A stretch of DNA of 64,000 nt from Acidimicrobiia bacterium (lineage in GTDB: Bacteria > Actinomycetota > Acidimicrobiia > Spongiisociales > ZC4RG35). Position numbers and translations under genes: made by a program. The first letter of the stretch is position 1, and every line of letters starts with the position of its first letter. The stretch spans positions 1 through 64,000 of the forward strand of contig JANQRA010000007.1 in assembly GCA_028284765.1 (NCBI GenBank). Direction: 5' to 3'. The notes beneath the pieces were generated by a model. The model worked only from the letters and a program-made list of their open reading frames with translations. It was not told where the DNA came from and ran no database searches. This document shows, one piece after another, positions 30,405 to 35,002 of the stretch.

Positions 30405-31211
30405 TCAGCTGCGCGCCGCGACCTTCCGGTAGCGAGCGATGGCCAGGGGAGCGAAGACGGCGATGAGGACAACCATCCAAATCACGGTGTATAAAACCGG
30501 GTTTTGGAGTGGCCACGCAGTCGGCTCCGGAGTACCAGCCGGGATGTTCCCGAACAGCTCACGAGTGGCTTGTGCCACCGCTGACACCGGGTTCCACTCA
30601 GCGAACACGCGGAGCGCGGTCGGCATGGTGTCGGCTGGGACGAAGGTGTTTGCCAGGAAGGTGAGTGGGAACAGCACCATGATCGAAGCGTTGTTGACCG
30701 CTTCTGGTGCCGGAACCATCAGGCCGACGAGGGCCATCACCCAGGAGATGGAGTAGGCGAAGCCGAGTAGCAGGAGGAATCCCGCCGCCGCTTCGAAGAA
30801 GCTGGTGTTGATTCGCCATCCGACGAGCAGGCCGGCTCCCGCCATCACGGCGAGGGTCAGGACGTTGTAGACCACGTCGCTCGCAGTCCGCCCGAACACC
30901 ACAGCCGATCTCGACATCGGGAGGGATCGGAACCTGTCGATGATCCCCTTCTGCATATCTTCGGCCAACCCTGCTCCTGTGAACGTGGCTCCGAAGACGA
31001 CGTTCATCGCGAACACCCCAGCCACGAGAAACTCGCGGTAGCTGCCGCCGTCAATGTCGATTGCCCCGCCGAACACGTAGGCAAACATCACGATGAGGAT
31101 CACCGGTGTCACCAAGACCGAGATCAGAATCTCCGGAACTCGACGAACCTTGATCATGTTTCGCCGGGCAATGTTGAACCCATCGGCGAATGCGAGTCGA
31201 GTCCGGTTCAT
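30405..31211 (-). CDS. ABC-2 type permease, DrrB-like
   Basis: This 268-residue protein has six TM helices and the daunorubicin-resistance permease pattern: RRVPEILISVLVTPVILIVMFAYVFGGAI, EDMQKGIIDRFRSLPMSRSAVVFGR and FPLTFLANTFVPADTMP. It pairs with the upstream DrrA-like ATPase, sharing one base at the stop/start. Such systems export hydrophobic drugs or lipids. Both genes are read from the TetR-controlled promoter at 32248-32302. Confidence 0.92.
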   Translation of the reverse strand: MNRTRLAFADGFNIARRNMIKVRRVPEILISVLVTPVILIVMFAYVFGGAIDIDGGSYREFLVAGVFAMNVVFGATFTGAGLAEDMQKGIIDRFRSLPMSRSAVVFGRTASDVVYNVLTLAVMAGAGLLVGWRINTSFFEAAAGFLLLLGFAYSISWVMALVGLMVPAPEAVNNASIMVLFPLTFLANTFVPADTMPTALRVFAEWNPVSAVAQATRELFGNIPAGTPEPTAWPLQNPVLYTVIWMVVLIAVFAPLAIARYRKVAARS

Positions 31212-32167
31212 CAGCCCGCCTCCTTCAACTGGTGCGTCTCGGCTTCGGTCAACGAAAGGAACACCTCGTCGAGAGTCGGACGCCTCAGCCCCGCGTCGGA
31301 GAGGTCGATCCCGGCGTCGTCGATGTTCCGAAGGGCAATCGAGAGTGCTCTTGGGCCACCCGACACCGGCGCCGAAAGGACACGTCCTTCAACCACTACT
31401 TCACCGACGGCGACTGACGCCAGTATCCGCTCGGTTTTCTCTCTATCCAGTTCGCTGTCGATTCGGACCTCGATCCGATCGCCCCCGGTCTGCGTCTTCA
31501 GAGTTTCCGCAGTGCCTTGGGCGATCTTGCGACCGCTGTCGATGACAACGATTTCGTCGGCGAGTTGCTCCGCCTCCTCCATGTATTGGGTGGTCAGGAG
31601 CAAGGTCGTCCCATTGGCGACCAGCTCCCTGATGACGTCCCAGAGGTCGTTGCGGCTTCGTGGATCGAGTCCGGTCGTCGGTTCGTCGAGAAACAGGACC
31701 CTCGGTTTGGCGACTAGCGCTCCTGCCAGGTCGAGACGTCGTCTCATCCCACCCGAGTAGCCACCGACTGGCCGGCTGCCAGCCTCGGTGAGATGAAACC
31801 TCTCGAGCAACTCGTTGGCCCGGACTCGAGCGGCCTTGTTGCCGAGGTGATAGAGACGACCGATCAAGTCGAGATTCTCGAATCCTGTCAGATGCTCGTC
31901 GACAGCCGCATATTGCCCGGAGAGACCGATGATGCTTCGAACGCGTGAAGGCTCTTCGGCAACGTCGATCCCAGCAATGCTCACCGAGCCCGCGTCTGCG
32001 CGGAGGAGGGTGGTCATGATCGAGACGGCTGTCGTCTTCCCGGCTCCATTGGGTCCGAGAACCCCGAGTACCGAACCCTCCGCCACATCGAGGTCCAAAC
32101 CGGTCAAGGCGCGGACATCCCCGTAGCTCTTCTCGAGGCCCCGCACCGAGATCATCTGAAGAGCCAT
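31211..32167 (-). CDS. ABC transporter ATPase, DrrA-like
   Basis: This 318-residue ATPase has Walker A GPNGAGKTT, Q-loop SGQYAAVDEHLTG, signature YSGGMRRRLDLAGAL, Walker B VLFLDEPTTGLDPRS and switch TTQYMEEAEQLAD. A C-terminal DrrA regulatory extension of about 90 residues is present, and AVDEHLTG is typical of drug exporters. The ATG at 32167 has no good Shine-Dalgarno sequence. It lies inside a short upstream reading frame that does have one, suggesting coupled translation. Confidence 0.92.
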   Translation of the reverse strand: MALQMISVRGLEKSYGDVRALTGLDLDVAEGSVLGVLGPNGAGKTTAVSIMTTLLRADAGSVSIAGIDVAEEPSRVRSIIGLSGQYAAVDEHLTGFENLDLIGRLYHLGNKAARVRANELLERFHLTEAGSRPVGGYSGGMRRRLDLAGALVAKPRVLFLDEPTTGLDPRSRNDLWDVIRELVANGTTLLLTTQYMEEAEQLADEIVVIDSGRKIAQGTAETLKTQTGGDRIEVRIDSELDREKTERILASVAVGEVVVEGRVLSAPVSGGPRALSIALRNIDDAGIDLSDAGLRRPTLDEVFLSLTEAETHQLKEAG

Positions 32168-32229
32168 GCGGGTGGTGCCTTGACGAAGTCGTCGATGCGG
32201 GCGTTGCCCAGCGCCGTTGTGTAGTTCAT
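32152..32229 (-). CDS. 25-residue leader peptide overlapping the drrA-like start
   Basis: The ATG at complement 32227-32229 follows an excellent AAGGAG at 6 bp. It encodes 25 residues (MNYTTALGNARIDDFV, then KAPPAWLFR) and stops at complement 32152-32154, overlapping the first 16 bases of the ATPase gene in another frame. Since the ATPase start lacks its own ribosome site, ribosomes finishing this peptide could reinitiate there. Expression is inferred from sequence only. Confidence 0.5.
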   Translation of the reverse strand: MNYTTALGNARIDDFVKAPPAWLFR

Positions 32230-32247
32230 ATTCACTCCTTGATTACC

Positions 32248-32302
32248 ATACAGCGTAAGTTGTACGGCGTAAGGTATACAACATACAGCGTAAGGCTGTC
32301 AA
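32248..32302 (-). promoter_or_regulatory. TetR-controlled promoter of the DrrAB-type operon with three half-site repeats
   Basis: On the minus strand: -35 TTGACA (32297-32302), an 18-bp spacer containing CTTACGCTGTAT, and -10 TATACC (32273-32278), whose downstream edge runs into CTTACGCCGTAC. A third copy, CTTACGCTGTAT, is at 32248-32259. The three copies start at plus positions 32248, 32262 and 32283. The same motifs recur in the promoter of the dehydrogenase at 33188, with the TetR gene between the two. Confidence 0.75.
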
Positions 32303-32375
32303 GGGGAGAGTTGAACTGGAGCTGATTTCAGCCGAATATGGCGATATGAACCCCGGGTTTCGGGACAGGGCGGGG

Positions 32376-33080
32376 TTAGGTGGTAGGGAGGGCCTGGCGG
32401 CGCGCTTCGAGGCCGTCGAGGATGATGTCGAGAGCGAATCGGAACTCGGTTTCGTCATCGCACCAGCCGACCGTGTCTTCCGGATCGTCGTGTTGGATCA
32501 CTTCCATCATGCCCACGATGTAAGGGAGATGCTCGATGAGCTCCTCAAGGTCTTGCTCGACCTCTTGTTCTTGTCCTGGCTCCGGCTCGAAGAGTTCCTG
32601 GCTGAAGCCGAGTGCGCGGCTGCCCAGGGCATGCATCGCGTGGTGGCCAAGGTCGTAGTCGAATCCACCTTCGATCATCACACCGAGAAGTCCGTGCATG
32701 TAGAACATGACGGTGGGAGCGATGATCGTTCGGCTCTCGATCACCTCAGGAGCCCATTTGTGACGCATGATCACAGCCCGTGCCCCAAGGATCCGTCGAC
32801 GGATCTCTGCCTGCCAGTCATCGACCTTCTCCGGGACTTCGAATCCGCCAATCTCTTCACCGATCTCGGCAACGATGGCGTCGACCACTCCGTCGAAGAT
32901 GGCCTCCTTGTTGGCGACGTGGTAGTAGAGCGACATGGCTTCGACACCGAGGTGTTCGGCCAGCCCGCGCATGGTCAAGGCTTCGATGCCACCTTCATCG
33001 GCGACTTCAATCGCGGCGGCGAGTACCCGCTCTCGACTGAGCGGCTCGCGTTTCGGTTGTGACTTCGTCTTGGTGACCAT
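32376..33080 (-). CDS. TetR-family regulator of the DrrAB/dehydrogenase locus
   Basis: The ATG at complement 33078-33080 gives 234 residues; an upstream start would place the N-terminus across the operator region. The HTH is typical (LSRERVLAAAIEVADEGGIEALTMRGLAEHLGVEAMSLYYHVANKEAIFDGVVD) and the C-terminal domain is of the tetracycline-repressor type. Its own start is preceded by a related half-site GTACAAGGTAAG (33102-33113). It likely represses the flanking exporter and dehydrogenase, with a hydrophobic ligand as inducer (inference). Confidence 0.9.
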   Translation of the reverse strand: MVTKTKSQPKREPLSRERVLAAAIEVADEGGIEALTMRGLAEHLGVEAMSLYYHVANKEAIFDGVVDAIVAEIGEEIGGFEVPEKVDDWQAEIRRRILGARAVIMRHKWAPEVIESRTIIAPTVMFYMHGLLGVMIEGGFDYDLGHHAMHALGSRALGFSQELFEPEPGQEQEVEQDLEELIEHLPYIVGMMEVIQHDDPEDTVGWCDDETEFRFALDIILDGLEARRQALPTT

Positions 33081-33130
33081 GTCGTCTCGTTGATTGTAAC
33101 CGTACAAGGTAAGTGAAGATTCCCCAGCCC

Positions 33131-33169
33131 TTGACATTCTTACGCTGTATGGTCTACCTTACGCAGTAC
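33131..33169 (+). promoter_or_regulatory. TetR-controlled promoter of the medium-chain dehydrogenase
   Basis: The -35 TTGACA (33131-33136) is followed by CTTACGCTGTAT (33139-33150) in the spacer. A -10-like TACCTT (33155-33160) overlaps CTTACGCAGTAC (33158-33169). Order and wording nearly duplicate the promoter at 32248-32302 on the other strand. A repressor bound here would cover both promoter elements. Confidence 0.75.
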
Positions 33170-33187
33170 GAATCATCAAGGAGATAG

Positions 33188-34201
33188 ATGTTGGCCACTG
33201 AAACCGACACCAAGACAATGCGAGCTGTGACCCAGCCGGGATACGGGACACCGGATGTGCTCGAAATCAAAGATGTCCCGGTACCTGCCCTCGAACCGCA
33301 CCAGCTGTTGATCAAGGTTCACTCAACGTCGGTGAACGCTGCCGAGTGGCATCTCACTACCGGACTCCCGTACCTCGTGCGACCGACCATGGGATTCAAA
33401 GCGCCCAAGAAGTTGGTGGTTGGGGCGGACGTTGCCGGAGTGGTCGAAGCAGTCGGAGCGGAGGTCACAGAGTTTGAACCCGGAGACCGCGTCTTTGGCG
33501 AGGTGGGTGGTGGTACGTGGTCTGAATATGCGAGAGGCACCGAGAAGACTCTTGCCCACCTGGCAGACAGTGTCTCGTTCGAGCAAGCGGGCGCAATCGG
33601 TATCGCAGGGCTGACTGCTCTACAGGGTCTCGTCGACCATGGCGGACTGACCGCCGGAGACGACGTCCTGATCATCGGAGCGTCTGGAGGTGTCGGCACC
33701 TATGCAGTCCAGATCGCAAAAGCACTGGGCGCCAACGTGACGGCTGTCTGCAGCACCAGAAACGTCGAACAGACCAAGGGTCTCGGCGCCGACAAGATCA
33801 TCGACTACAAGTCTGAGTCCTACACCGACCTGGGCAATCGATTCGATCTCATCCTGGACAACGTGGGGATGGGCCCAGTCCTCAAGACGAAGAAGCTCCT
33901 CAAACCGGGTGGCAGATACGTATTTGTGAGTGGGCCCAAGCGCCCGATCCTCGGGCCTATTCCGAAGCTGCTGCGCTCCAAGGTCGCCTACATGTTCGGT
34001 GACAAGACGATGAAGTTCTTCGTCGCCGAGTCGAACCGGAAGGATCTCGAGACACTTGGCCGCTTGTTGGAATCCGGCGAAGTCCGTTCAGTCATTGAGA
34101 ATCGGTATGACCTCGATTCTGCGATTGAAGCCCTGGCCTATCTGGGTGAGGGGCACTCGCGCGGGAAGAACGTGATCAACGTCGTCACCTCATCCGCGTG
34201 A
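33188..34201 (+). CDS. Zinc-independent medium-chain dehydrogenase/quinone oxidoreductase family protein
   Basis: This 337-residue NAD(P)-dependent oxidoreductase has a strong AAGGAG site. The N-terminal GroES-like domain has VHSTSVNAAEWHLTTG and GADVAGVVEAVGAEVTEFEPGDRVFG; the Rossmann motif is IIGASGGVGTYAVQIAKALGA. The structural-zinc Cys cluster is absent, as in quinone oxidoreductases. Co-regulation with a drug-type exporter suggests a role in detoxification of a reactive hydrophobic compound, which is inference. Confidence 0.9.
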   Translation: MLATETDTKTMRAVTQPGYGTPDVLEIKDVPVPALEPHQLLIKVHSTSVNAAEWHLTTGLPYLVRPTMGFKAPKKLVVGADVAGVVEAVGAEVTEFEPGDRVFGEVGGGTWSEYARGTEKTLAHLADSVSFEQAGAIGIAGLTALQGLVDHGGLTAGDDVLIIGASGGVGTYAVQIAKALGANVTAVCSTRNVEQTKGLGADKIIDYKSESYTDLGNRFDLILDNVGMGPVLKTKKLLKPGGRYVFVSGPKRPILGPIPKLLRSKVAYMFGDKTMKFFVAESNRKDLETLGRLLESGEVRSVIENRYDLDSAIEALAYLGEGHSRGKNVINVVTSSA

Positions 34202-35002
34202 TTCGTTGACCGAGTCTCTCCACTCCAGCCAAGCCGGCAGTCCGTCCAGGGAGTAATCCGGACCGTTGGTCCCGTACGTGAACTGAGTGAAGCCCCGAGC
34301 CAAGTAGTCGTCGGCGTGATCCGCGAGTACCCGTGCATGGTCGTTCGGCTCGAGACCAAGCGACCATTCGACGTCATGCGGGTCGCGACCGATCTCAGCA
34401 CACCATTTGTGGAGAGCCTCCACGGCCGGTGTCAGGTCTTCAGGCTTCCCCGGGAAGAGTGCATGCCAGGTGGTTGCGTGCTGAGCAACCAGGCGCATGG
34501 TCTTTCTGGGTCCGGTGCCACCGATGACAATTGGGATTTCACGGGTGGGTGCGGGGTTGAGTTCCTGCCACCGAGCGCGGATTCTCGGAAGCGATCTGCC
34601 CAGGTCGTCCAGCCGTGAACCGGCTGTACCGAACTCGTACCCATACTCGTCGTAGTCCCTCTGGAACCAACCAGATCCGATCCCGAAAACGAGCCGGCCA
34701 CCCGACATGTGATCGACTGTTCTTGCCATGTCTGCCAGGAGGTCCGGATTGCGGTACGAGTTGCACGTGACGAGACAGCCGATCTCGATGGTCGATGTCT
34801 GCTCGGCCCAGGCTCCCAACATCGTCCACGCCTCGAAGTGCTTGCCGTCGGCGTCCCCGTATAGCGGGTAGAAGTGGTCCCAGTTGTAGACGATGTCGGC
34901 ACCGAGCTCTTCGGCCCGAGTAACGGTTTGCCGAATGCTTGCGTATTCGGCGTGCTGGGGGTGGATCTGGACTGCGATGCGGACTGGGCGGTTCGTGGAC
35001 AT
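34190..35002 (-). CDS. LLM-class (luciferase-like, F420-dependent type) oxidoreductase
   Basis: This 270-residue TIM-barrel protein has the N-terminal strand VRIAVQIHPQHAEY, YNWDHFYPL, the CNSYRNPDLLADMARTVDHMSGGRLVFGIGSGW segment and PIVIGGTGPRKTMRLVAQHA. These match actinobacterial F420-dependent LLM enzymes. Substrate is unknown. Its 3' end overlaps the dehydrogenase by 12 bp on the opposite strand. Confidence 0.9.
   Translation of the reverse strand: MSTNRPVRIAVQIHPQHAEYASIRQTVTRAEELGADIVYNWDHFYPLYGDADGKHFEAWTMLGAWAEQTSTIEIGCLVTCNSYRNPDLLADMARTVDHMSGGRLVFGIGSGWFQRDYDEYGYEFGTAGSRLDDLGRSLPRIRARWQELNPAPTREIPIVIGGTGPRKTMRLVAQHATTWHALFPGKPEDLTPAVEALHKWCAEIGRDPHDVEWSLGLEPNDHARVLADHADDYLARGFTQFTYGTNGPDYSLDGLPAWLEWRDSVNESRG

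Follow-up and report, generated by a model that had tools for sequence, protein, structure and literature searches.

The two outward-facing promoters that flank a tetR-family gene in the 64,000-nucleotide stretch of Acidimicrobiia DNA analysed here (the window) belong to a regulon that is real, conserved and apparently undescribed, the type of circuit itself being well known. Judging from sequence, it is very probable that the targets form one regulon with this TetR-type protein as its repressor. A sequence-only reading had proposed such a regulon for a DrrAB-type exporter and an oxidoreductase, and the proposal is borne out by the same positioning of sites in relatives, by an operon at one related locus (L169), by a recurring gene layout and by unlinked reductase genes that carry the operator. 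More tentatively, as a possibility that stops short of being probable, this may be a new regulon for defence against quinones or electrophiles, conserved in the Acidimicrobiia and in several further lineages of actinobacteria. A single TetR_C_1 repressor, reading a promoter code of tandem CTTACnnnGTAnG sites, would there couple DrrAB and a DUF4389 membrane protein to reductases dependent on NAD(P)H and on F420H2, and paralogous regulators of MMPL exporters would read nearly the same code. A search of the open-access literature, with subscription papers outside its scope, gave no match for the operator sequence or for regulons of DrrAB with a reductase, of DUF4389 or of F420. For a regulator that occurs in many uncultured actinobacteria and in some that can be cultured, the analysis supplies an operator code and a set of targets that can be tested. 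It also places DUF4389 and some F420H2-dependent reductases in a regulatory context for the first time, and offers a way towards the natural toxin that is sensed.

An imperfect palindrome of 13 bp, CTTACnnnGTAnG, is the predicted operator; it is present three times before drrAB, twice before the reductase gene and once, as a complete copy, before tetR. On the minus strand, the exporter promoter has a -35 hexamer, TTGACA, at 32302-32297, which is conserved in relatives, and a candidate -10 read from the sequence, TATACC, at 32278-32273. Its operator 1 (32282..32294, core CTTACGCTGTA at 32294-32284) is followed at 21 bp by operator 2 (32261..32273, core CTTACGCCGTA at 32273-32263) and after a further 14 bp, the commonest spacing between sites 2 and 3 in relatives, by operator 3 (32247..32259, core CTTACGCTGTA at 32259-32249), the third copy that had been noticed in the exporter leader. 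On the plus strand, the reductase promoter has the -35 hexamer TTGACA at 33131-33136, with TTGAC equally spaced before operator 1 in most relatives, and a candidate -10, TACCTT, at 33155-33160; operator 1 (33139..33151, core CTTACGCTGTA at 33139-33149) lies between the two hexamers, and operator 2 (33158..33170, core CTTACGCAGTA at 33158-33168) overlaps the candidate -10 and the start region. The near identity of the two promoters, with their positions and their shared order of elements (TTGACA, then two sites), holds as first described: of 44 aligned columns, 38 are identical and 4 mismatched, and there is a single 2-bp gap; the local score is 57, whereas 2,000 dinucleotide shuffles averaged 15.0 and never exceeded 26. 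What had been taken for a related half-site before tetR is instead a complete operator, CTTACCTTGTACG, at 33113-33101 on the minus strand, a putative auto-regulatory site with counterparts of the same kind in 21 relatives. It sits just upstream of a candidate tetR -10, TACAAT, read from the sequence at 33093..33098 on the same strand, and TAGAAT- or TAAGAT-like hexamers occupy this position in many relatives. A generic sigma-70 scan called none of these promoters, because the -10 elements are weak. The 2.90 Mb genome contains 14 copies of the core CTTACNNNGTA (CTTACnnnGTA), against 48 of the reversed control, and 6 of the 14 fall within this 0.9 kb locus; given the other 8, the Poisson probability of 6 sites in 922 bp is about 4e-19, a post hoc figure for a motif that was picked here.

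The tetR-family gene (32376..33080, minus strand) encodes 234 aa from an ATG at 33080, a start set by alignment with relatives, which do not support the longer 253-aa open reading frame that over-extends through the operators. The product contains a TetR_N helix-turn-helix (PF00440, 40.5 bits, cut-off 24) and a TetR_C_1 ligand-binding domain (PF02909, 38.7 bits, cut-off 21), and the presence of a palindromic operator, conserved in relatives, both in the tetR promoter and in the divergent one agrees with membership of the TetR_C_1 branch of the TetR family. Its AlphaFold model (pLDDT 90.4) matches TetR, SimR, ActR and PamR2 in a fold search, all of them ligand-released repressors solved with antibiotics as ligands; assignment to the tetracycline repressor TetR equivalog itself was rejected (NCBIfam NF010319, 69.1 bits against a cut-off of 265). 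The divergent gene (33188..34201, plus strand) encodes a member of the MDR superfamily with ADH_N and ADH_zinc_N domains (PF08240, PF13602), of the zinc-free reductases within it: the only cysteine sits in a VCSTRN motif, so the usual cysteine zinc ligands are absent. By its domains and its nearest solved structures (a chloroplast quinone-oxidoreductase homologue, a ripening-induced protein, RTN4IP1 and quinone oxidoreductases) it would be an NAD(P)H reductase of the quinone/enone type; PIG3-type quinone oxidoreductase was considered and set aside (TIGR02824, 156.5 bits against 296.8). The final 12 bases of the reductase gene are shared with a convergent gene at 34190-35002 on the minus strand, which encodes an F420-dependent LLM oxidoreductase (TIGR03856); a 79% identical LLM gene lies downstream of drrAB, in the same direction, at the related locus L009.

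On the exporter side, the ATPase gene (31211..32167, minus strand, with its start probably the ATG at 32155) is of the drrA type (TIGR01188, 333 bits, cut-off 312.45), and its partner is an ABC-2 permease (30405..31211, minus strand; PF01061, 90 bits) that cannot be placed in the DrrB subfamily (TIGR01247, 59.9 bits against 223; TIGR00025 also below cut-off). Between the operators and drrA lies a 25-aa leader open reading frame, MNYTTALGNARIDDFVKAPPAWLFR (32152..32229, minus strand), which has a good ribosome-binding site (AAGGAG) and whose TGA stop codon overlaps the ATG at which drrA probably starts (ATGA). A similar leader, overlapping in the same way, is found in L009 and suggests translational coupling.

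A scan of public genomes yielded 28 relatives, mostly Acidimicrobiia but including Actinomadura, Phytoactinopolyspora, Agromyces, Actinocrispum, Plantactinospora and others, in which the sites recur beside tetR, before the MDR reductase gene and, where it is present, before drrAB. A motif search in relatives had been set in advance as the test of the proposal, and it came out in its favour: among 37 non-redundant loci with a regulator of at least 50% identity, CTTACNNNGTA was found within 1.2 kb in 36, with 131 sites against 1 for the reversed control, and the single locus that lacks sites starts at the end of a contig. In 26 of the 37 loci a reductase is adjacent, and drrA lies under operators in eight (the window, L008, L009, L012, L021, L027, L165 and L169), the commonest arrangement being a reductase with no exporter. 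The layout of the window, with tetR between the reductase gene and drrAB, is also seen in L008, L009, L027 and L158, the last with a regulator only 44% identical, and in L169 a single operator cluster precedes one operon made up of the reductase gene, drrA and drrB. The zinc-free MDR reductase is the core partner, and DrrAB is an accessory that sometimes shares an operon with it. In three genomes (G113, G180 and G221) tetR either has its self-site alone or lacks a target next to it, and an operator-bearing reductase gene lies on another contig (L151, L152 and L153). Since the single regulon is strongly supported, exporter and reductase would respond to a shared signal, as had been claimed; the further suggestion that one compound is reduced and then exported keeps a conditional form, most relatives having the reductase without drrAB.

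The promoter code is well preserved across these loci. Over 82 target sites, gathered by exact CTTACNNNGTA match so that only positions outside the core are informative, the consensus is CTTAC[G/A]N[C/T]GTA[C/T]GA, and 75 of them have the outer G in the right half; the self-sites before tetR in the 21 relatives read CTTAC[C/T]NNGTA, with C or T where the targets have G or A. A common target promoter, TTGACA-N2-site 1-(18/19 bp)-site 2-(14 bp)-site 3, serves reductase and drrA genes in many species, and spacings of 21, 23, 24 and 33 bp are also found. With site 1 thus between -35 and -10 and site 2 covering the candidate -10, the placement suggests that the regulator represses its targets. In Allosalinactinospora (L022, 4986-5400) a three-operator promoter is kept before an apparently truncated reductase remnant.

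The regulon extends beyond the window, which the earlier reading had missed. Paired operators also precede two unlinked genes of the source genome (G000), for a DUF4389 membrane protein and an F420H2-dependent reductase, and both kinds of target recur in relatives. The first pair is a set of tandem sites at G000:C6:9506-9531 (L039:5507-5532), 11 bp before the DUF4389 gene and in opposite orientation to it, the better site being inverted and the other degenerate. In G029, G032 and G009 a DUF4389 gene lies downstream of an operator-controlled reductase gene, in the same direction and in an operon, and in G185 (L162) one lies near a more distant regulator. The second pair, CATACGTTGTATG and CTTACAACGTACG, 23 bp apart, precedes the F420H2-dependent reductase gene (PF04075, TIGR00026) at G000:C22:22237 (L059:1738). 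Such reductases lie under operators in three genomes, this one, G008 (L107) and G113 (L151), and in the last the gene is followed by an MDR reductase gene; direct homologues in other genomes of the family were found to lack sites, and the target has therefore probably been recruited repeatedly and separately in different genomes. The remaining single CTTACNNNGTA sites of the source genome (one on C4, two on C5, one on C13 and two on C19) have no second site in their flanks and were discarded. Operator pairs in this genome are spaced by 14, 19, 21 and 23 bp, and a search of it for pairs spaced by 18 bp, with at most 3 mismatches, returned none.

The most likely mechanism is that a dimer of the TetR_C_1-type repressor binds CTTACnnnGTAnG at three promoters of the window, within the -35/-10 spacer and over the -10 and start region for the reductase gene and drrAB, and immediately before the -10 for tetR, and that when ligand is absent RNA polymerase would be blocked at these three and at the two unlinked promoters of the DUF4389 and F420H2-dependent reductase genes. 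Repression rather than activation is also indicated by the 107-bp gap between tetR and the reductase gene, as under the '200 bp rule' TetR-type regulators encoded less than 200 bp from a divergent gene usually repress that neighbour (PMC3511530). A small ligand would free the repressor, whereupon the reductases would inactivate the toxin and DrrAB would expel it, and newly made TetR would reset the switch. Because two unrelated reductase families and exporters are combined with ActR- and SimR-like folds, a toxin resembling a quinone, an enone or an aromatic polyketide is the likeliest ligand, and the quinone/enone assignment, drawn from gene content and fold, appears about evenly balanced between right and wrong.

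The chief alternative accepts the regulon and gives it a metabolic role, the reductase acting on, for example, an endogenous enone or a fatty-acid-derived metabolite and drrAB exporting the product or a lipid in place of a toxin. The best-scoring solved relatives of the exporter ATPase are ABCA-type lipid transporters, a reductase standing without any exporter is the prevailing arrangement, and substrates vary among MDR reductases of this type, as the names of the solved relatives indicate. It has also been suggested that many targets of the TetR family may be metabolic (PMC3511530). We consider this alternative rather unlikely, however, as two unrelated reductase families together with exporters (DrrAB, and MMPL with the paralogous regulators) fit a stress or toxin response better, and no biosynthetic gene cluster was seen to accompany the locus.

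It is very unlikely that the sites belong to some other DNA-binding protein, such as a paralogous TetR encoded elsewhere, and that this tetR is merely nearby. In favour of such a binder, distant paralogous tetR genes (33-38% identity) beside MMPL transporter genes have near-identical operator clusters (L101, L156, L159 and L164); recognition therefore overlaps within the family, and cross-talk between the paralogues is possible. Only one close regulator is encoded in the source genome, however (E<=1e-40), and the sites track the regulator across 296 genomes: the tandem operator is present in 20 of the 21 genomes of the class that have the regulator and in 18 of the 275 that do not (Fisher p ~1e-19, a statistic that ignores shared ancestry), and within the family of the source organism the counts are 10/12 against 1/22 (p = 5e-6). 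In several of the 18 a more distant regulator of this type is encoded (L158-L162, L164), and the rest are probably chance matches, as was judged for a tandem match without the regulator at G002:C2. The self-sites before tetR in relatives also argue for this regulator, as does the fact that recognition helix and operator change together. Helix VEAMSLYYHVANKE pairs with CTTACnnnGTAnG, the altered helix VKPM[A/S]VYYHVANKE of the Nonomuraea regulators with the altered operator GTACTTAGTAC, and the altered helix VEAMSLYKHVASKD (VEAMSLYKHV) of the L106 regulator with CTTACTAAGTAA. The Nonomuraea loci, L028 and L030, are distant relatives, and their different palindrome lies in the intergenic stretch that precedes the regulator. 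If a promoter fragment had recently been duplicated on the spot, 38 identical columns out of 44 inside the window could be accounted for, but such a duplication is highly improbable as the sole cause, since each promoter matches those of other species equally well or better (the reductase promoter scores 64 with L014 against 51 with the window's own drrA promoter, which in turn scores 60 with L012) and the architecture is kept over many genera.

Several known systems parallel the preferred reading, that of a TetR-type repressor controlling reductases and an exporter. Among the closest is ActR/actAB of Streptomyces coelicolor, in which a TetR_C_1-type repressor is divergent from an exporter gene; ActR, solved with the quinone antibiotic actinorhodin, is among the nearest solved structures by fold and sequence, although identity in the fold search is 21-23% and the actAB exporter is of the MFS type where DrrAB is found here. 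To our knowledge no reductase lies under the same operator in that system. SimR/simX and TetR/tetA share the fold, the domain make-up and a divergent exporter target, and are top fold matches, but the regulator described here scores 69 bits against the TetR equivalog cut-off of 265; the operators of both systems differ from this one, and we know of no multi-site promoter with a reductase in either. The DrrAB daunorubicin exporter of Streptomyces peucetius is matched by the ATPase, which passes the drrA subfamily model, and not by the permease, which falls below the drrB model. Its control differs as well, drrAB in S. peucetius being bound by DnrI according to a work cited as reference 47 in PMC7559539, whereas a TetR-type protein would exert control here. 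In its mode of action the proposed switch resembles MhqR of Staphylococcus aureus, which represses quinone-resistance genes from an inverted-repeat operator and is released by a quinone without a thiol mechanism (PMC6798810). MhqR belongs to the MarR family and has other target genes, and the present locus, with its TetR-family regulator, was accordingly not assigned to the MhqR/QsrR-type regulons.
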